NCBI GenBank assembly: GCA_019638285.1
Contig: JAHBUB010000037.1
Coordinates: 1 to 33,981, forward strand
From: Cyclobacteriaceae bacterium
GTDB taxonomy: Bacteria > Bacteroidota > Bacteroidia > Cytophagales > Cyclobacteriaceae
Direction: 5' to 3'
Length of the DNA stretch: 33,981 bases
Below, in pieces: positions 836-28,997 of the stretch. Both the position numbers and the translations under genes were made by a program. Each line of letters starts with the position of its first letter. Position 1 is the stretch's first letter. The notes below the pieces were generated by a model. It was not told where the DNA came from, searched no databases, and saw only the letters and a program-made list of their open reading frames with translations.

Positions 836-867
836 TAAAAAGCATCCCTTATCGGGATGCTTTTTTT
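836..867. terminator. Bidirectional rho-independent terminator
   Basis: Perfect 8-bp stem AGCATCCC (841-848) and GGGATGCT (854-861) around a 5-base loop, with A-run on the left and seven T on the right, so it can act on both strands. It closes the plus-strand DUF2911 gene and the minus-strand symporter. The symporter stop codon (851-849) falls in the loop, and its last codons (KKASR) are encoded by the right arm and T-run. Confidence 0.85.
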
Positions 868-2552
868 ATGCCTTGATTTTCTATGAATTGAATAATGAAT
901 GCGACAGCCACGACCACCAAACATCCTATAATGTTGTAAAGAAGGAAAGCCATCTCGGTAAAGAAGTAACAGTAAAGAATTACAGCTTCAGCTATAATGG
1001 CAGCAATAAACACCGCATTGGATTTGATGTATTTTAAATAAAATGCACTGAGAAAAATACCAAGTATCGTACCGTAGAATAGGGAGCCTATAATATTCAC
1101 AAATTGAATAAGGTTTTCCGCTTGATTGGCTATCGAAGCAAACAGCATCCCAAAAACAGCCCAACCCGCAGTAAACCACTTTGATGCCTTCACGTAATGG
1201 TAATCATCTGCATTTGGCTTAATGGATCGCTTATAAATATCAACGGCAGTGGTAGAGGCCAAAGCATTAAGTTCAGAGGCGGTAGAAGCCATTGCCGCAG
1301 AAAACACCACCGCGAGCAATAATCCTATCAGTCCATGGGGTAAATACGTCATTACAAAAGTGATAAACACATAGTCTTTATCGAGTGTATTGGCTCCGGG
1401 TATGGCCGTGGCTATTTTTTCTTTTACCTGATTCCGTATTCCTCTCTCCTCCGCTTGAATTTTTTCAATGGAATGCCTTGTGTGTTCGATCAGTTCAGTA
1501 TTCTTCTGACGAATAGCTCCCACAAGGTTTTCTGCTTCCCTTCTTTTTTCGACAAAGACTTCATCGTATTGAGACTCCAAGGCAGTAATGTCTCCGGCAT
1601 ACTCAGTTTGCATGGCCTTGTCTTTCAATGATTGGTTATGAAAAACAGGAGCTTGATTGAACTGATAAAACACGAATACTAAAATCCCTATATAAAGGAT
1701 TATGAATTGCATGGGAATCTTTAAAAGACCATTGAATATCAGTCCTAATCTGCTTTGCCCAATGGAGCTTCCTCCAAGATATCTTCCCACCTGAGATTGA
1801 TCAGCACCGAAATAGGAAAGAAAAAGAAAAAGACCTCCAATCAAACCCGACCAAATATTGTAACGATCACTTAAATCAAATGATAAATTGATAAGGTTTA
1901 GTTTTCCCATCTCCCCCGCCACCTGGAAGGCTTCAGTAAACGTAATGTTGTTCGGTAGTTTAGAAAACGCAGTCCAACCTGCAATAAACATACCCCCCAT
2001 AATAATGGTGAGTTGATATTTTTGAGTCATGCTCACTGCCTTTGTTCCACCGCTGACGGTGTAAATCATTACAAGTGTGCCAATAAATATGGTAGTGATG
2101 TTAATATTCCAATCCAACATGGTGGAAAGAATCAATGATGGCGCATAGATGGTTATTCCAACAGAAAGCCCTCGCAACATCATAAAGAAAAATGCAGCAA
2201 GCGAACGTGTCTTTAAATCAAATCGACTCTCCAGGTATTCATACGCGGTGTATACTTTTAGCCGATGATACAGTGGCACAGCAGTGATGCTTAGAATAAC
2301 CATTGCCAATGGCAATCCAAAATAGAATTGGAGAAAACGCATCCCATCTTCATAGGCCTGCCCGGGGGTAGAAAGAAAGGTGATGGCACTCGCTTGTGTT
2401 GCCATTATGGATAAACAAACATTCCACCATGGTAGGCTTTTATTACCTAATAGATATCCATCTATGTTCCTGCTTCCACGGGTCTTCCATGTACCATAAG
2501 CTACAATAAGAGCGAGTGTGGAGAATAAAATTATCCAGTCAATAGAATTCAT
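849..2552 (-). CDS. Sodium:solute symporter, SSS family
   Basis: 567 residues with about 13 hydrophobic spans, the LeuT-fold layout of the SSS (SLC5-like) family. It should import a small solute with Na+ across the inner membrane. Family marks are the first helix followed by GYLLGNKSLPWWN, the conserved ATQASAITFLSTPGQAY stretch (residues 51-67), and the small/hydroxyl-rich helix SAAMASTASELNALASTTAV (418-437), where SSS proteins bind the second sodium. Residues about 298-390 form a long charged, helical insert between two spans, rich in Glu, Lys and Arg and probably coiled coil. The ATG shares its A with the stop of the 39-residue ORF upstream, so translation is probably coupled. Substrate cannot be read from the sequence; the linked PIG-L deacetylase suggests a sugar or sugar-derived compound (inference). 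Confidence 0.9.
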   Translation of the reverse strand: MNSIDWIILFSTLALIVAYGTWKTRGSRNIDGYLLGNKSLPWWNVCLSIMATQASAITFLSTPGQAYEDGMRFLQFYFGLPLAMVILSITAVPLYHRLKVYTAYEYLESRFDLKTRSLAAFFFMMLRGLSVGITIYAPSLILSTMLDWNINITTIFIGTLVMIYTVSGGTKAVSMTQKYQLTIIMGGMFIAGWTAFSKLPNNITFTEAFQVAGEMGKLNLINLSFDLSDRYNIWSGLIGGLFLFLSYFGADQSQVGRYLGGSSIGQSRLGLIFNGLLKIPMQFIILYIGILVFVFYQFNQAPVFHNQSLKDKAMQTEYAGDITALESQYDEVFVEKRREAENLVGAIRQKNTELIEHTRHSIEKIQAEERGIRNQVKEKIATAIPGANTLDKDYVFITFVMTYLPHGLIGLLLAVVFSAAMASTASELNALASTTAVDIYKRSIKPNADDYHYVKASKWFTAGWAVFGMLFASIANQAENLIQFVNIIGSLFYGTILGIFLSAFYLKYIKSNAVFIAAIIAEAVILYCYFFTEMAFLLYNIIGCLVVVAVAFIIQFIENQGIKKASR

Positions 2553-2671
2553 TAAAAAGAATTAGTGATAAAAAGATAGACAATGATTTGGACAGCCAGC
2601 ACGATCATCACCAGCCAATACCACATACTCCACCGGGAAAAAACAGGAGGCTTCTCTTCTTCTTCTGACAT
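2552..2671 (-). CDS. 39-residue single-span membrane protein, candidate symporter subunit
   Basis: This short frame begins with ATG at 2671 and ends with TAA at 2554-2552. The N-terminus is acidic (MSEEEEKPPVFSR), followed by an aromatic belt (WSMWYW), one hydrophobic helix (residues about 20-35, LVMIVLAVQIIVYLFI) and the tail TNSF. Its start overlaps the stop of the PIG-L gene as TAATG, and its own stop overlaps the symporter start in the same way, so it is almost certainly translated. I recall similar small acidic/aromatic single-span proteins beside SSS transporters in Bacteroidota, but I know of no characterised member. The likely role is a small accessory or stabilising subunit of the downstream symporter. 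The existence of the gene is well supported; its function is inference from position. Confidence 0.8.
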   Translation of the reverse strand: MSEEEEKPPVFSRWSMWYWLVMIVLAVQIIVYLFITNSF

Positions 2672-5187
2672 TATTTAATAGATTTATTTTTTTGATTGGT
2701 TGGCTTCTTTGTTTTGCTCAAGGAAACCAAGTTGGCGAATAGCTTGTAAGCACCCGGTACACCTTCTGGTAGCTCTCGGAAAAAAGATAAGCCAGTGTAC
2801 ACATAATTTCCTTCTCCATATTTGGCTACCAGTAAGGAGCCCGCAGTCAAATCTTCACCCGGATCATTGGTTGCAATGAGTGCTTCAAATTTTGGATCCC
2901 ATTTATTGGGGAAGTACAAGCCCCGCTCCTGCACCCAGCCCTCAAAATCTTTCGCTGTGATTTTATTAGGTGCGCTAAGTGCAACGTGCTCTGGTTTCAA
3001 AATTTTCACATCACTCTCTTCGTCTGTTACCCGGTCGCGTGATAAAGTAAGTGGATAGGGAGAAAATTTATCTTTATCAATTTCCAAACTGGAGTTGGTA
3101 TTGTACTGCACCACCAAGGTCCCTCCTTTTTTAACATAGTCCAGTAGGTCAGGCATAAAATATTTAATTCTTTCGTTTGTGTTCAATGCACGCACACCCA
3201 GCACGACTGCGTCTAACTTGGCAAGGTTCTCAGGTGTAACCTCATCGTTTTTCATCTCCAATACTTGATACCCCATGTTTCGAAGTGCTGCCGGTATTTG
3301 GTCCCCCGCCCCTTCTATATAACCTATAAGTGCTCCCTCTTTCTTCAAATTGATGCGTACCAATTTGGCTTCAGCAGGTGGCAATAAAGTTTGAATTGGA
3401 AAATGATCGTATGCAATAATCTGCATAGATTGATCAAATGTTTGATTGCTTATAATTGCATTGGCCTTAAGGGTAGATGTGGTTTCCTCATTAGATGGAA
3501 ATACATTAAAAGTTATTGATTTCTCATCTCCCCTATTGGCAAGTTCAAATGCATGATGAGCAGGCTCAGATCTCCATCCTTTTGGCAAATCAAGTGTGAT
3601 CTCGCCACTTAGCTTATGGTCTGCATTGGATTTGGCCAACACTGAAACTGCTTTTGGACTGGCATCATTGAACACCACAACCGATTCTGATAAATTGAGG
3701 GACAATGGTGGCACTACTTCAACGGGGCGCCAGAGTTCACCCTTTACAGGATCTGTCCATTTATAAATTAATGGCACCGAAAGAGATAACATTTCGCCAT
3801 TAAGTTCAAGTTGAAACTGAAATACAATGGCTGGATCATTCTCTGGTTTTCCAATTAATGATTTGTCTTTAACCGTAAACAGCCCCAATGAGTGAGGTTC
3901 CTTTAACCAATAAGGATTTGAATAGGGAGTGTTAGGGTTGAGTATTTTAGCTGTTTTTAATTCTAAAGGTTTATTGTTAACCAGCGTGTTGTCAAGTACA
4001 GAATCGTATTCCAGCGTAGAAGCTGAAATTCTCCTCACTTTCAAAGGCAGCCCTGATCTGTTAACCAACTCAAATGAACTCCCCACCTTTTCTCCGGGTG
4101 CGATGTAGTAGTTATCTGCTTTTGCTTCAAGATACAAACCCAGACAATCTTCAATTAACACGTTTACCTCTTTCAATTTTCTTGTTTTCCAAATTCCATC
4201 TTTCAAAGCGATAATTTCCTTTCTCGCCTTTAAAAGATCTGGAATAGATGCCGCAGGATTATCTTCCGTATACTCTGCAATCAATTTTTTAACAATGGGT
4301 TCCACCTTATCACCACCCTCCACTCTTGACCATGTGGTATTTACATTTTCTAAAATATTACTCTTAGCATGATACCCTTTTACATATTCAAAAAATTCCA
4401 AGGCTTCACCTCTGCTTCCGGAAGAGCCAAATCCCTGACTTTTATGCTGAGTTCTGCTCACCGCAGCCATTTCAGAATATGAGGTGCCGAGGAGTGGATT
4501 GTATACCCCTACATCCATTACTACTATACCGGACGTGTTTTGATTAATGTCAGTATTCCACCATCTACCTGTGTTGGTGTAAAGCCCCTTTACCTGCCAC
4601 AACCCTACCTCCGAAATCTGCTCAGGAAAAGCGGATGGATCATTAGTGAGGTCAAATGCTTCTTGTGCTAATACAGCCGAGGCGGTATGATGACCATGAC
4701 CTGCCCTGGCATCAGGAGGAAATCGAGTCAAGATAATGTCCGGCTGAAATTTTCTTATTATGCGCACTATATCCGATAATATTTCCTGCTTATTCCAAAT
4801 TTTAAAAGTTTCCGTTGCACTTTTAGAATAGCCAAAGTCATTGGCGCGAGTAAAAAACTGATGACCGCCATCTATTCTTCTTGCGGCTAACAATTCTTGT
4901 GTGCGTATCAACCCTAGTTGGTCTCTGATTTCCGGTCCAATCAAATTTTGGCCCCCATCCCCTCTCGTCATGGAGAGATACCCTGTAGTGGCTAAACGTT
5001 CGTTGGAGAGATAAGCAATTGCCCTTGTATTCTCATCATCAGGATGAGCCGCCACATATAAAACCGTTCCTAAAAAATTGAGTTTTTTAAGGTGCAGCTT
5101 AATTTCTGCTGCATTGGGTTGTGAGTGAGTTTGCGCAAATGAACCTACTGTTGCGCTCAGAATAAATATTATAACTATCCTTATCAT
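2671..5187 (-). CDS. PIG-L/LmbE-type deacetylase with long C-terminal extension
   Basis: 838 residues. A signal peptide (about 1-19, ending SFAQ) predicts export. Residues about 40-270 form the PIG-L/LmbE domain: AHPDDE at 47-52 gives the zinc His and Asp and the catalytic Asp, and GHGHHTASA at 163-171 supplies the second histidine cluster. The family hydrolyses N-acetyl groups from amino-sugar compounds. A beta-rich middle (about 350-630) resembles NEW3-like domains. The C-terminal 200 residues resemble a class-I glutamine-amidotransferase-like fold (LDAVVLGVRALN, YVKKGGTLVVQYN) without an obvious catalytic Cys, so it may be a binding module. It is the first gene of an operon with the mini-protein and symporter. 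Exact substrate unknown. Confidence 0.85.
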   Translation of the reverse strand: MIRIVIIFILSATVGSFAQTHSQPNAAEIKLHLKKLNFLGTVLYVAAHPDDENTRAIAYLSNERLATTGYLSMTRGDGGQNLIGPEIRDQLGLIRTQELLAARRIDGGHQFFTRANDFGYSKSATETFKIWNKQEILSDIVRIIRKFQPDIILTRFPPDARAGHGHHTASAVLAQEAFDLTNDPSAFPEQISEVGLWQVKGLYTNTGRWWNTDINQNTSGIVVMDVGVYNPLLGTSYSEMAAVSRTQHKSQGFGSSGSRGEALEFFEYVKGYHAKSNILENVNTTWSRVEGGDKVEPIVKKLIAEYTEDNPAASIPDLLKARKEIIALKDGIWKTRKLKEVNVLIEDCLGLYLEAKADNYYIAPGEKVGSSFELVNRSGLPLKVRRISASTLEYDSVLDNTLVNNKPLELKTAKILNPNTPYSNPYWLKEPHSLGLFTVKDKSLIGKPENDPAIVFQFQLELNGEMLSLSVPLIYKWTDPVKGELWRPVEVVPPLSLNLSESVVVFNDASPKAVSVLAKSNADHKLSGEITLDLPKGWRSEPAHHAFELANRGDEKSITFNVFPSNEETTSTLKANAIISNQTFDQSMQIIAYDHFPIQTLLPPAEAKLVRINLKKEGALIGYIEGAGDQIPAALRNMGYQVLEMKNDEVTPENLAKLDAVVLGVRALNTNERIKYFMPDLLDYVKKGGTLVVQYNTNSSLEIDKDKFSPYPLTLSRDRVTDEESDVKILKPEHVALSAPNKITAKDFEGWVQERGLYFPNKWDPKFEALIATNDPGEDLTAGSLLVAKYGEGNYVYTGLSFFRELPEGVPGAYKLFANLVSLSKTKKPTNQKNKSIK

Positions 5188-5314: not shown

Positions 5315-5749
5315 TCAAAATTTTGCCTGTTTTTCACCATTAATCAGAAGGGTGCCATCCGCCTCAACAAAAAGAGTAATCCGGCTTGCATCTCCATGCT
5401 TAGAAAAGAAAATTAGATCAAAAGAATAGACATCGATCTGGTCTTTCAAATCATCCGTAAATCCCATGTCGATCAATATTTCATCATTTACACTTGCTTT
5501 GCGCGAATATATGCGATGTCCGAGATTATTAGTAATTCTCACCCGTTCTTCATTCTCTGAAAGCCTGGTTGGGGTGATTCTAATTTCTGCATAGGGCAAC
5601 TTGCCTGCAGCAAAGCCACCCGGTTTTCCATCACCACCCGGTTTAGTTCTAAATTCAAAGTTCAACTTGAATTCAAATTCATCACTGGGCTTCAACGGAA
5701 CTTGATTCTGTAAAAGGAAAGGAAGAAGAAGAATTACAATCAGATTCAT
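5315..5749 (-). CDS. Small secreted protein of unknown function
   Basis: I place the start at the internal ATG at 5749, giving 144 residues and a clean signal sequence (MNLIVILLLPFLLQNQ). An upstream ATG at 5842 would add 31 Cys- and Arg-rich residues that hide the signal peptide. The mature part is soluble and beta-rich, with a Gly/Pro stretch (TKPGGDGKPGGFAAGKLPY) and alternating hydrophobic strands ending in TLFVEADGTLLINGEKQAKF. I do not recognise a family. It lies 127 bases downstream of the PIG-L operon start, in the same orientation but as a separate unit. Neighbours give no clear functional hint. Confidence 0.6.
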   Translation of the reverse strand: MNLIVILLLPFLLQNQVPLKPSDEFEFKLNFEFRTKPGGDGKPGGFAAGKLPYAEIRITPTRLSENEERVRITNNLGHRIYSRKASVNDEILIDMGFTDDLKDQIDVYSFDLIFFSKHGDASRITLFVEADGTLLINGEKQAKF

Positions 5750-5878
5750 ATTAAGCCGAGTAATGCATAAACTTAGCCAAAAAAATTGGTGACGACCGGA
5801 AGAGTACCGATTGCAGCACTGGATGAACCTTGCTTCTCGCAATAATTTATCGAAAGCCTATACCCCATCATAGGTGCC

Positions 5879-20263: not shown

Positions 20264-21577
20264 TTAAATGGAAGGCAGCCAAGTGTTTGTATTCACTTTC
20301 GCACCCATGTCATTCAAGAGAGTATACAAACCGAAATAAGTACGATTGATATAAAGCGCATCCTTCACTCCTCTTGCTCTTTTAGAATTTCTGAATTCTT
20401 TCATCGTGGAGATCGATTCCCCAAAAGCATACAATTCAGTAAAATATTTGCTGTCAGAGAAATCAAATTCAGGTGTTTGAAAGGGACGACCAAGCAGCTC
20501 TACCAAATCGGTAAAGACCTTTTTAAAGAATGCCTTATCGTGCGGGGTGTCATCCTCGTAGATAAAATTGAGTTGATAAAAGACTCTTTCCAATCTGGGT
20601 TTGTCAAATAGTATTCCTCTATCTAACAGTTGAAAGTATATCCTGTAGAAATCATCTGGAATTACTTTAACACAACCGAAGTCTATAATCCCCAATTGTA
20701 AATCGTTGGTGATTATAAAGTTACCAGGGTGAGGATCGGCATGTAACGCGCACAACTGATGCATCTGAAAGTGATAAAAATCCCACATGCCCTGCCCTAC
20801 TCTATTTGCATCTTCTTTTGAAAACTTTTCAGTCTTAAGAAACTCTCCCAATGGCTTACCTTCCAGCCAATCCATGGTAAGTATCTTAGAACAAGATAAT
20901 TCAGGATAATAAGTAGGGAATTTTATATTGGCAATTTCATTACACTTTTCAGAAAGCTCAACTGATCTCTCTAACTCCAGGGTATAATTGGCTTCTTCTA
21001 TTAATCGAGATTCTACCTCACCAATAAATTCGTCATAATCAGCGGGGTTCAACTTAAACATCCGCAATGCTATAGGCTTCACCATGGCCAGATCACTTTT
21101 AATTGAATCTGCCACCCCAGGATATTGCACTTTCACTGCCAACTCTTTTCCCTTCAATGTCGCTTTATGGACCTGTCCTATAGAAGCTGCATTGGTAGCA
21201 TGCCTGCTGAATGTATCAAATAGATCTGAGGGCTTCTTTTTAAAATACTTTTCAAAAGTCTTATTAACCAAAGGAAATGAAAGTGGTGGCGCACTGTACT
21301 GTGCCATCGAAAACTGTTTTTGATAAGCACTGGGGAGCATGCTTTTATCCATGCTCAACATTTGTGCTACCTTTAATGCACTGCCTTTAAGTTCACTTAA
21401 AGAATTATAGATATCGGTGGCATTATCTTGATGAAGTTCGTCTTTATTACGCCCTGGATCTACTAATTTTTTACTGTAATGCTTCAGGTAGTTAGTGCCA
21501 ATATTGGCTCCTGTCTTTATAAATCTGCTAGCCCTCTGAACCTTAGAGGTAGGAATACTTTTCTGCTCTTTCATCAT
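20264..21577 (-). CDS. ABC1/UbiB (ADCK)-family atypical kinase
   Basis: 437 residues. Features of the ABC1 family: a GSALKVAQMLS stretch (65-75) at the place of the KxGQ motif, the Ala-rich loop NAASIGQVHKA (129-139), the ATP-site Lys149 in AVKVQYPG, LHADPHPGNF (278-287) as catalytic loop and IIDFG (297-301) as metal-binding motif. The protein is of the ADCK3/COQ8-like type that supports quinone biosynthesis or lipid metabolism. The KxGQ motif reads KVAQ here, with Gly replaced by Ala. The ATG lies two bases after the TetR-type gene's stop, so the two form an operon. A second ATG follows directly (MM), so the start is uncertain by one codon. Confidence 0.9.
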   Translation of the reverse strand: MMKEQKSIPTSKVQRASRFIKTGANIGTNYLKHYSKKLVDPGRNKDELHQDNATDIYNSLSELKGSALKVAQMLSMDKSMLPSAYQKQFSMAQYSAPPLSFPLVNKTFEKYFKKKPSDLFDTFSRHATNAASIGQVHKATLKGKELAVKVQYPGVADSIKSDLAMVKPIALRMFKLNPADYDEFIGEVESRLIEEANYTLELERSVELSEKCNEIANIKFPTYYPELSCSKILTMDWLEGKPLGEFLKTEKFSKEDANRVGQGMWDFYHFQMHQLCALHADPHPGNFIITNDLQLGIIDFGCVKVIPDDFYRIYFQLLDRGILFDKPRLERVFYQLNFIYEDDTPHDKAFFKKVFTDLVELLGRPFQTPEFDFSDSKYFTELYAFGESISTMKEFRNSKRARGVKDALYINRTYFGLYTLLNDMGAKVNTNTWLPSI

Positions 21578-26495: not shown

Positions 26496-28997
26496 TTAAG
26501 CTTGCCTATAAGCCAATAGCCTGAGCGCGTTGAGTACCACTACCACCGTAGAGCCTTCATGCATGAGCACAGCCGGGCCTATGGTAGCAATGCCTGAAAT
26601 GGTAAGCGGAACCAGTATCGCCACCATCCCCAAGCTGATCCAAACATTTTGCTTGATGATGCTTTTTGCGCGCCTGCTGAGGCCAATCACAAATGGCAAC
26701 CCATCGAGCCTGTCTGCCATTAAGGCCACATCTGCCGTTTCCAATGCCACATCACTTCCTGCAGCACCCATGGCAATACCGACAGAACTGTGGGCCATCG
26801 CAGGGGCATCGTTTACCCCATCGCCTACCATGGCCACCCTGGATTCTTTTTTCATCAATTTCTTTATCGCATTCACCTTTTCTTCGGGCAACAAACTTCC
26901 CCACGCTTCCTCTAGTCCCACTTCCTTCGCCACAGCATTGGCCACATTCTGGTTGTCACCCGTGAGCATGATCATGCGATGTATGCCCATTCTTTTCAAT
27001 TCATCCAAGGTTTCCTTTGCCGAAGCTCTCGGAACATCCATCAATGAAATGATTCCAACATAGGTTTCATTTTTTCTGATCACCATGGTGGTATTGCCCT
27101 CCGACTCCAATGCCGTTACCTTTTCAATGGTTTCATTAGAAGGCTTGATTTCATCCAGCGCTGCAAATAAGCTAAGGTTCCCTACGTAGATCTTATCGTC
27201 ACCAAGAGAAGCCATGAGTCCTTTCCCCAGCACTGCCTCCATGCTATGGGCCAAAGGGATGTCTATCGCACCGAGGCGCGACCTGCCATCTCTTACTACT
27301 GCTTTGGCCAGGGGGTGGCTGCTAAGACTCTCTACGGCAACGGCTATCTCTAAAAGTTCTGTTTCAGTAATTCCGCCCAGCGGTACCACGTGTGTAATCT
27401 TGGGTTTTCCCTCAGTAAGTGTGCCTGTTTTGTCAAACGCCATCGCTTTAATTGCACCCAAATCTTCAAGGGGTCTTCCTCCTTTTATTAACACGCCCCC
27501 GCGTGCCGCTCTGGCCACACCACTCAACACTGCACTTGGCGTAGAGATCGCCAACGCACATGGGCTTGCTGCTACCAGCACTGCCATGGCACGATAAAAG
27601 CTTTGACCATATGATTCGTCTATTATAAGAAAGGTAAAGTTTAGTAACACCACCAGCACCAACACTGCCGGAACAAAGTATTTTTCAAACTTGTCGGTGA
27701 ATCGTTGTGTGGGTGATTTTTGTGTCTGCGCTTCATTCACCAACTGCACCAGACGGGAGAGTGTAGAGTCTTTGTACTCTTTGATGATTTTTATTTCCAG
27801 CATGCTATTACCATTGATGGTACCGGAATACACCCGGTGAACATCTGGTATATCATGCACTTGTGAATAATCTTTTTCGATATCATCCACAGGCTCTTTA
27901 TCCACCGGCACACTTTCTCCCGTGATGGGTGCCTGATTGACGCTGCTGCTCCCATAGATAACTACGCCATCGGCTGAAATCTTACTGTTTGGTTTTACCA
28001 AAATAATATCTCCTACACGCAATAGCATAATACCCACCTCTTCTACCTTTCCATTCTTTTTAAGTAAGGCCGTCTTCGGAGCCAGGTCTGCCAAGGCGGC
28101 AATTGATTTCTTTGCTTTACCCATGGCATAATGTTCCAGTGCATGGCCCATGCTAAACAAGAAAAGAAGCAGCGCACCTTCAGCCCATTTACCAAGAAAT
28201 GCAGCACCTATTGCTGCAATGAACATCAAGAAGTCGATCTCAAAACCGCCTCTTAATAAAGTTTGAATGGCTTCCTTTGCAGTGTAATACCCACCAAAAA
28301 AGTAGGCACCCATGTAACATACCAAACTGTACCAGGAGGGTATTGAAGACATCCATGAAAATCCGAATCCAATAGCAAGCAGCAGTCCGCTAATGATAGA
28401 AAAGATGAGTTCGGTATTCTTACCAAAAACGCCACCATGAGGATGAGCATGGTCATGACCGTCTCCTTCATGGTGCACATGCTCTTTCACATGCATCCCT
28501 ATGGCCTCTGACTTCTTCCACTCTTGGAGAAACCGCTCCGCCTGTACTGAAGCATCTGGAATGCCCAGGCCTTGTGCCCTTAGCAACTCCAATATTCTGC
28601 TTACACTCATCTTTGAGGTATCATATTCTATCCTCACCATACCTGAGCCTGACACAGCAGCTTCCAATATTCCGGCTTCGTTGGTTAAGATTCGTTCAAT
28701 AGCACGCGCATGGCGAATGTGCCTGACCCCCTCTACTTCAATTAGTTTGTGACCATACTTTTTGGCGATTTCCGCTCCGGCTTGCTCTGCCAGAGATTGA
28801 ATTTTATCAATGGATATTATGTCGGAATTGTAGTGAAAGCAAAGACGGGGTACGATACTGCCCTCTCCCAATGAAACATGTACTTCCTCCACACCTTCCG
28901 TGTCGGCAAGTATTTCGATCAGCTTCTGCACACATCGGTCTTTCTCGTCAGGTACCTCAGGTAATAAGAAGGGGATTTCTATTTTATGCTTTTCCAT
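26496..28997 (-). CDS. P1B-4-type heavy-metal P-type ATPase
   Basis: 833 residues. All P-type motifs are present: TGES (359-362), phosphorylated Asp522 in DKTGT, HP (561-562) and GDGVNDAP (725-732). The metal-site motif in the TM helix before the P-domain is SPC (478-480), and a C-terminal span has HEGST (813-817). This pair marks the P1B-4 group, which exports Co2+, Fe2+ or Zn2+ (CtpD/CoaT/PfeT-like). The N-terminus (1-190) holds two ferredoxin-like HMA folds with no CxxC, then a His-rich run HVHHEGDGHDHAHPH (173-187), probably the metal sensor or chaperone site. It is a monocistronic gene on the minus strand ending beside the inverted repeat. Exact metal is unknown. Confidence 0.92.
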   Translation of the reverse strand: MEKHKIEIPFLLPEVPDEKDRCVQKLIEILADTEGVEEVHVSLGEGSIVPRLCFHYNSDIISIDKIQSLAEQAGAEIAKKYGHKLIEVEGVRHIRHARAIERILTNEAGILEAAVSGSGMVRIEYDTSKMSVSRILELLRAQGLGIPDASVQAERFLQEWKKSEAIGMHVKEHVHHEGDGHDHAHPHGGVFGKNTELIFSIISGLLLAIGFGFSWMSSIPSWYSLVCYMGAYFFGGYYTAKEAIQTLLRGGFEIDFLMFIAAIGAAFLGKWAEGALLLFLFSMGHALEHYAMGKAKKSIAALADLAPKTALLKKNGKVEEVGIMLLRVGDIILVKPNSKISADGVVIYGSSSVNQAPITGESVPVDKEPVDDIEKDYSQVHDIPDVHRVYSGTINGNSMLEIKIIKEYKDSTLSRLVQLVNEAQTQKSPTQRFTDKFEKYFVPAVLVLVVLLNFTFLIIDESYGQSFYRAMAVLVAASPCALAISTPSAVLSGVARAARGGVLIKGGRPLEDLGAIKAMAFDKTGTLTEGKPKITHVVPLGGITETELLEIAVAVESLSSHPLAKAVVRDGRSRLGAIDIPLAHSMEAVLGKGLMASLGDDKIYVGNLSLFAALDEIKPSNETIEKVTALESEGNTTMVIRKNETYVGIISLMDVPRASAKETLDELKRMGIHRMIMLTGDNQNVANAVAKEVGLEEAWGSLLPEEKVNAIKKLMKKESRVAMVGDGVNDAPAMAHSSVGIAMGAAGSDVALETADVALMADRLDGLPFVIGLSRRAKSIIKQNVWISLGMVAILVPLTISGIATIGPAVLMHEGSTVVVVLNALRLLAYRQA

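Follow-up and report, generated by a model that had tools for sequence, protein, structure and literature searches.

The window, by which we mean the whole stretch of 33,981 nucleotides of Cyclobacteriaceae DNA that was analysed, carries near its beginning a minus-strand group of genes in which a very short open reading frame (ORF) lies between a deacetylase gene and a symporter gene. The features of this group are as follows.

849 to 2552, minus strand: 567-amino-acid SSS symporter, with 13 membrane helices counted from the helix list of its model and a SiaT-like fold; the constant partner gene
1383 to 1646, minus strand: symporter residues 303-390, an insertion between TM8 and TM9 forming two long helices in the model
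2550 to 2554, minus strand: TAATG overlap of the small-gene stop and the symporter start
2552 to 2671, minus strand: 39-amino-acid single-helix membrane protein (117 coding bases and a stop codon) from an unnamed family
2669 to 2673, minus strand: TAATG overlap of the PIG-L stop and the small-gene start
2671 to 5187, minus strand: 838-amino-acid PIG-L-type deacetylase, often the upstream neighbour; signal-peptide-like N-terminus, and AHPDDE and HGHH motifs recognised by eye
5315 to 5842, minus strand: 175-codon ORF upstream of the PIG-L gene; its TTG start and its membership of the operon are uncertain

A preliminary description of this DNA had placed the small ORF exactly between the PIG-L stop and the symporter start with TAATG overlaps at both ends, and this arrangement is confirmed; its strand, left unstated there, is the minus strand (2671 to 2552), the plus-strand reading of 2552 to 2671 being an unrelated stretch with a stop. 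On the coding strand the junction of the PIG-L TAA with the small-gene ATG reads ...TTAAATAATGTCAG and that of the small-gene TAA with the symporter ATG reads ...TTTTTAATGAATTC, one base being shared in each. The upstream gene contains a PIG-L domain (PF02585, E 3.9e-17, 63.4 bits against a cut-off of 28.2) and thus belongs to the PIG-L family, while the downstream gene matches both PF00474 (E 1.6e-35, 123.2 bits against a cut-off of 22.8) and TIGR00813 (213.7 bits against a cut-off of 184), which together with its fold identify it as an SSS protein. Weak homologues of the 175-codon ORF (66 and 68 bits) are found upstream of PIG-L at two other loci (L144 and L145), and at a third (L041) an ORF that looks similar by eye precedes the small gene, PIG-L not being found there.

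The encoded peptide, MSEEEEKPPVFSRWSMWYWLVMIVLAVQIIVYLFITNSF, has the acidic N-terminus, aromatic belt and single hydrophobic helix previously attributed to it, as judged from the sequence and from an AlphaFold2 model with one helix at residues 14-38, beginning at the conserved Trp14 (mean pLDDT 88.9). The core shared across the family consists of W-x3-Y and a hydrophobic helix after it; members range from 30 to 51 amino acids with a median of 41 (110 loci, with starts chosen by rule and some genes fetched twice, e.g. L006 and L034), and the distance from the Trp to the end is exactly 27 residues in 198 of 248 members, these being the 254 alignment rows minus six without WxxxY. Rows of the first family alignment were taken by the WxxxY pattern; at that step no profile match lacked the motif, and later six of 254 did. 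A Lys or Arg lies no more than three residues from the Trp in 230 of 248 proteins, and Lys/Arg average 2.48 around the Trp (W-8 to W+3) versus 0.62 in the tail, a charge asymmetry that is a weak sign of an N-in/C-out orientation because the compared stretches differ in length (~12 versus ~5 residues). Numbered from the conserved Trp, per-position information peaks at 0, 4, 7, 11, 15, 18, 21/22 and 25, and the helix-face periodicity has its maximum at 100 degrees (p 0.0005 by permutation over the 26 positions 0-25). Since the choice of rows fixes positions 0 and 4, the fair values are those for positions 5-25 (p 0.014) and 5-23 (p 0.055). One conserved face of this kind, predicted from the alignment, fits specific helix packing of the small protein.

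The neighbouring symporter was modelled with AlphaFold2 from 118 sequences (pLDDT 84.2, pTM 0.81), giving the 13 membrane helices counted above and, at residues ~303-390, an insertion of two long helices with pLDDT mostly above 90. Foldseek placed the model nearest to SiaT (5nva; TM-score 0.75 by query, 0.89 by target), followed by NIS, SGLT2-MAP17 and SMCT1. The alignment has ~94 residues in the window symporter where SiaT has ~11, and the insertion is 60 residues or longer in 264 of the 268 symporters aligned and measures 78-81 in four symporters without the partner gene; an insertion of ~80-90 residues, not present in SiaT, is a signature of this symporter clade. The N-terminus lies outside in other SSS proteins, and if the usual SSS topology holds, the insertion would be on the periplasmic side. 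We can only guess at the substrate, perhaps a sugar or amino sugar that the deacetylase sets free.

With the peptide as query, matches were found in 68 of 96 genomes, its own included (E ≤0.1). Among the other genomes of the same genus 54 of 57 matched, the three misses being 77-79% complete. When the symporter protein alone was used as query, 176 stretches encoding a relative were found, of which the best 80 were kept, and a member of the small family was detected by profile just upstream of the symporter in all 80 of these, with -4 to 88 bases between the small stop and the symporter start; the loci span Cyclobacteriaceae/Flammeovirgaceae, Pontibacter, Marivirga, Hymenobacter, Gillisia, Xanthomarina, Aquimarina and Saprospiraceae, among others. 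In a class-wide sample the small gene was matched in 164 of 395 genomes and 100 of 196 genera. To assess selection, 39 coding sequences from close relatives were reduced to 32 by dropping identical ones, which yielded 496 pairs, of which 95 were usable with dS between 0.05 and 1.5 and 252 were saturated in dS. Omega was below 1 in all 95 usable pairs (median 0.34), and was 0.065 for the window against L042. The small ORF is a real, conserved protein gene under purifying selection.

The distribution of the small gene was compared with that of the symporter in a phylum-wide sample of 296 genomes, with thresholds of E 0.01 for the small gene and E 1e-70 for the symporter. Matches to the small gene were found in 99 genomes, to the symporter in 114, and to both in 94 (Fisher p 4e-50, relatedness ignored), and 92 of the 106 small-gene matches sit just upstream of the symporter on the same strand. 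An adjacent small gene was detected by profile in 91 of the 114 symporter genomes, and a further 14 have a diverged hydrophobic ORF next to the symporter, recognised by eye (five with WxxxY, nine without), of which a later profile search of upstream ORFs missed four and scored three more below 15 bits. In five of the 114 the small gene is located elsewhere. Four of these (G121, G149, G194 and G133) carry it ~15 kb upstream of the symporter on the same strand and free of stops, scoring E 2e-17 to 1.2e-15 with profile A4, which has the G194 peptide as its first row and does not include the other three; the small genes of G194 and G133 are also matched by profile A1, and no SSS gene was found beside the small gene in the surroundings inspected in these two genomes (L217, L251, L268). 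The four cases may represent one event since all are in one genus (g84). In the fifth genome (G365) the small gene is ~108 kb from the symporter on the same contig.

The remaining four of the 114 symporter genomes (G255, G207, G230 and G238; loci L230 and L232-L234) have no recognisable partner, PIG-L standing directly before the symporter with no small gene, and the absence is an apparent loss; these genomes are useful for asking what the symporter needs instead of the small protein. Three of the four share genus g85 with G122, which has the small gene. Five genomes, G122 among them, have a small-gene match without a symporter at threshold; in the other four (G129, G145, G187 and G314) the match is weak (E 0.003-0.009). 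In G122 (L196, G122:C19:25500-37500) PIG-L and the small gene are kept, followed by just the first and last parts of the symporter, the rest of which appears missing through a true deletion or an assembly fault. One contig (G384:C1) has two copies of the cassette, near both contig ends (L151 and L152), with small peptides identical over the stretch read; the symporter match at 21555 on that contig contains one in-frame stop, and the open frame recovered covers just a part of it.

Usually there is one small match per genome, beside one SSS gene; the small gene as a rule directly precedes that gene, with an ATGA or TAATG overlap, and was not seen with another SSS gene in the contexts examined, which include part of the 14 non-adjacent matches. 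In the genome of the window (G000) no WxxxY ORF lies upstream of any of five SSS paralogues, indicating that the SSS fold needs no such partner in general; hydropathy gives these paralogues ~12-14 helices, the same crude method giving 11 for the window symporter. Upstream of one of them (L223) is a hydrophobic 38-residue open stretch without WxxxY that ends 99 bases before the SSS frame opens, and this was taken as chance. The genetic association of the small gene with one transporter clade is consistent, with few exceptions, and the conservation in relatives that the preliminary description had proposed as a check was borne out at the 80 symporter-selected loci and in the phylum-wide sample (91, 14 and five of 114 genomes), as was selection on the peptide in the 95 usable pairs.

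From these genomic and sequence patterns, the product of the small ORF is probably a single-helix accessory subunit dedicated to a single SSS clade of Bacteroidota, the binding itself being something that we infer. The protein would insert N-in/C-out and would pack along the symporter through one face, comprising W0, Y4, V7, L11, I15, F18, T22 and F/Y25 as numbered from the conserved Trp. Because it would be made just before the symporter from the coupled message, it would be at hand while the 13-helix protein folds. It may then stay in the scaffold and help with assembly, stability or membrane level, itself carrying no substrate.

Some small membrane proteins are known to regulate transporters, and an alternative is that the protein is a regulator of the symporter, such as a reversible inhibitor or a proteolysis handle, rather than a structural subunit. 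The same genomic evidence speaks for either role and nothing separates the two directly; however, coupled synthesis and the usual pattern of one small match beside one symporter fit a stoichiometric subunit better, and we consider a purely regulatory role unlikely.

The relation to the deacetylase bears on a further alternative, in which the operon's small membrane protein is free of the symporter and works with the PIG-L deacetylase or the envelope. A set of 154 loci with both the symporter and the small gene was assembled from the window, 80 symporter-selected loci and 73 loci reached through small-gene matches, so that the joint presence of the two genes in 154 of 154 is partly by construction. 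PIG-L lies within 2.5 kb upstream in 126 of these loci, which together with the retention of PIG-L and the small gene beside a symporter remnant in G122 would suit a free protein. Conversely, PIG-L is absent from that interval in 28 loci, of which ~25 of the 154 are true cases once one locus at a contig end with the PIG-L C-terminus visible (L036) and two with short flanks (L073, L093) are set aside, and there the small gene stays with the symporter. In addition, PIG-L adjoins the symporter in the four genomes without the small gene, so PIG-L and the symporter go together without it, although the small protein could still serve either of the two. A free protein is on this evidence rather improbable. 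The symporter is the most constant partner of the small gene, and the deacetylase, the other flank of the ORF in the preliminary description, is a frequent but dispensable neighbour.

The same description had held that double translational coupling is hard to explain by chance. The reality of the ORF is upheld by its presence in 54 of 57 genomes of the genus, its recurrence at 80 of 80 loci and the selection acting on it, but the double overlap is not general, both junctions overlapping in 23 of the 112 loci in which both were measurable, with starts chosen by rule. That the ORF is a translated leader, its translation feeding ribosomes into the symporter start while the peptide itself is idle, would suit the close spacing to the symporter start, which the small stop overlaps in 98 of the 154 loci and precedes by 0-20 bases in another 48, but is highly improbable given that the amino-acid sequence is constrained (omega < 1), that conservation tracks a helix face, and that the small gene is open and recognisable ~15 kb from the symporter in the four genus-g84 genomes, which may go back to one event and where a pure leader would not persist.

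The subunit reading invites comparison with known small partners of symporters. ActP of Escherichia coli belongs to the SSS family, and its neighbour YjcH has two helices. Like the window peptide, YjcH is a small membrane protein whose gene immediately precedes that of a symporter, in its case with a 4-base overlap; it differs in its length of 104 amino acids, against 39 for the window peptide, and in its match to DUF485 (PF04341, 2.8e-31). BLASTP gave no alignment between YjcH and the window peptide, profile comparison gave a probability of 1.4%, and DUF485 was absent among the Pfam matches of 62 family members in a search whose library does find YjcH, which places the family outside DUF485. 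In its accessible portion, PMC6498577 treats the acs-yjcH-actP operon, acs and actP, and not YjcH alone. The small protein thus resembles YjcH in gene order.

A second comparison is with MAP17, which is longer than the window peptide and has a membrane orientation opposite to that predicted for it. MAP17 (PDZK1IP1) is a single-helix auxiliary subunit of SGLT2 that forms part of a fixed scaffold and contributes to stabilisation, contacting TM13 (with helices numbered from TM0), and the role of the single extra helix in SGLT2-MAP17 is still discussed, according to the accessible portion of PMC10803289. The likeness of the small protein to MAP17 with SGLT2/SGLT1 is that of a single-helix partner of an SLC5/SSS-fold transporter, and perhaps one of role. 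The model of the window symporter matches the SGLT2-MAP17 structures 8hez, 8hb0, 8hg7, 7vsi and 9kkq with query TM-scores of 0.72-0.76, and the helix contacted by MAP17 seems to be absent from the window symporter because its model has 13 helices. A search of PDB chains with the family profile returned no MAP17 match and no relative, its one match (E 6.8) being to another chain. The small protein may be regarded as analogous but unrelated to YjcH-ActP in gene order and, perhaps, to MAP17-SGLT2 in role.

An extended form of the subunit reading can be put forward tentatively, as a possibility that we rate somewhat short of even: across much of Bacteroidota the transporter would be a near-obligate two-part SSS system, with a 13-helix core bearing a periplasmic helical hairpin and a helix of 30-50 amino acids supplied in trans at a fixed site and needed for a working transporter, and would be an independently evolved bacterial counterpart of MAP17-SGLT2, possibly replacing the last (14th) helix of SGLT-type proteins. 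The small protein would then share what we take to be the in-to-out direction of that SGLT-type helix. Docking of the small helix in place of the missing 14th helix is not specifically supported, because the paralogues with ~12-14 helices by hydropathy in the genome of the window have no partner.

Covariation between the two proteins was examined in a set of 281 loci, 13 of which had no usable symporter, while 14 of the other 268 had no upstream partner (L288 among them). Coupling analysis of 248 pairs (effective number 136) ranked some pairs of small-protein and symporter positions high; pairs of Trp+21 with symporter residues 218 and 220 recurred at three regularisation settings, and one of the two in each half of the data. 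Of six cut-offs, one gave p 0.025 for depth agreement, and none did so with a second depth measure. In a control based on mutual information in 133 loci with PIG-L, the small protein and the symporter gave z 7.2, four of 24 PIG-L windows gave a higher z and three of 24 a higher peak; the top pairs differed from those of the coupling analysis, Trp+21 with 218 ranking tenth. Covariation was accordingly dropped as evidence of binding, as the signal falls inside the range that PIG-L segments give with the symporter.

Small accessory membrane proteins of LeuT-fold symporters also include MetS (with the NSS transporter MetP, PF16951), DUF4212, YhdT and DUF3311. DUF4212, DUF997/YhdT, DUF3311 and MetS were absent among the Pfam/NCBIfam matches of the 62 members at E up to 1, a result that holds only if the libraries include each model. 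The window peptide has no Pfam or NCBIfam match, and no model in either collection matches the family at E up to 1 when the 62 members are searched. The interpretation in the preliminary description is thus supported in part: a new family of symporter partner is well supported, whereas a bound subunit with a part in setting assembly or substrate coupling, as suggested there, is an inference. The open literature searched for the peptide yielded no paper, the subscription literature falling mostly outside that scope. A search of PHROGs gave one match to the small family at chance level (E 0.36), and the plasmids searched held no related symporter at E 1e-60. No natural fusion of the small protein to the symporter occurs among the matches listed in the class scan, where open frames run up to 132 amino acids; in the peptide search two weak matches lie in long frames (G073, 519 amino acids, E 0.026; G081, 713 amino acids, E 0.047). 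The genome of the window itself contains three weak matches to possible paralogues of the small gene (E 0.18-0.51), and no symporter was read in the region of the best of them (L002).

Transporters of the SSS/SLC5 type are important in medicine and metabolism, and a bacterial partner of 30-50 amino acids kept with one clade would offer a minimal system for testing what one extra helix does. It is also a widespread family of short genes matched by no model in the searched copies of Pfam and NCBIfam. Lastly, elsewhere in the window, at 26496-28997, an 833-amino-acid ORF resembles by eye a heavy-metal P-type ATPase with a His-rich stretch.
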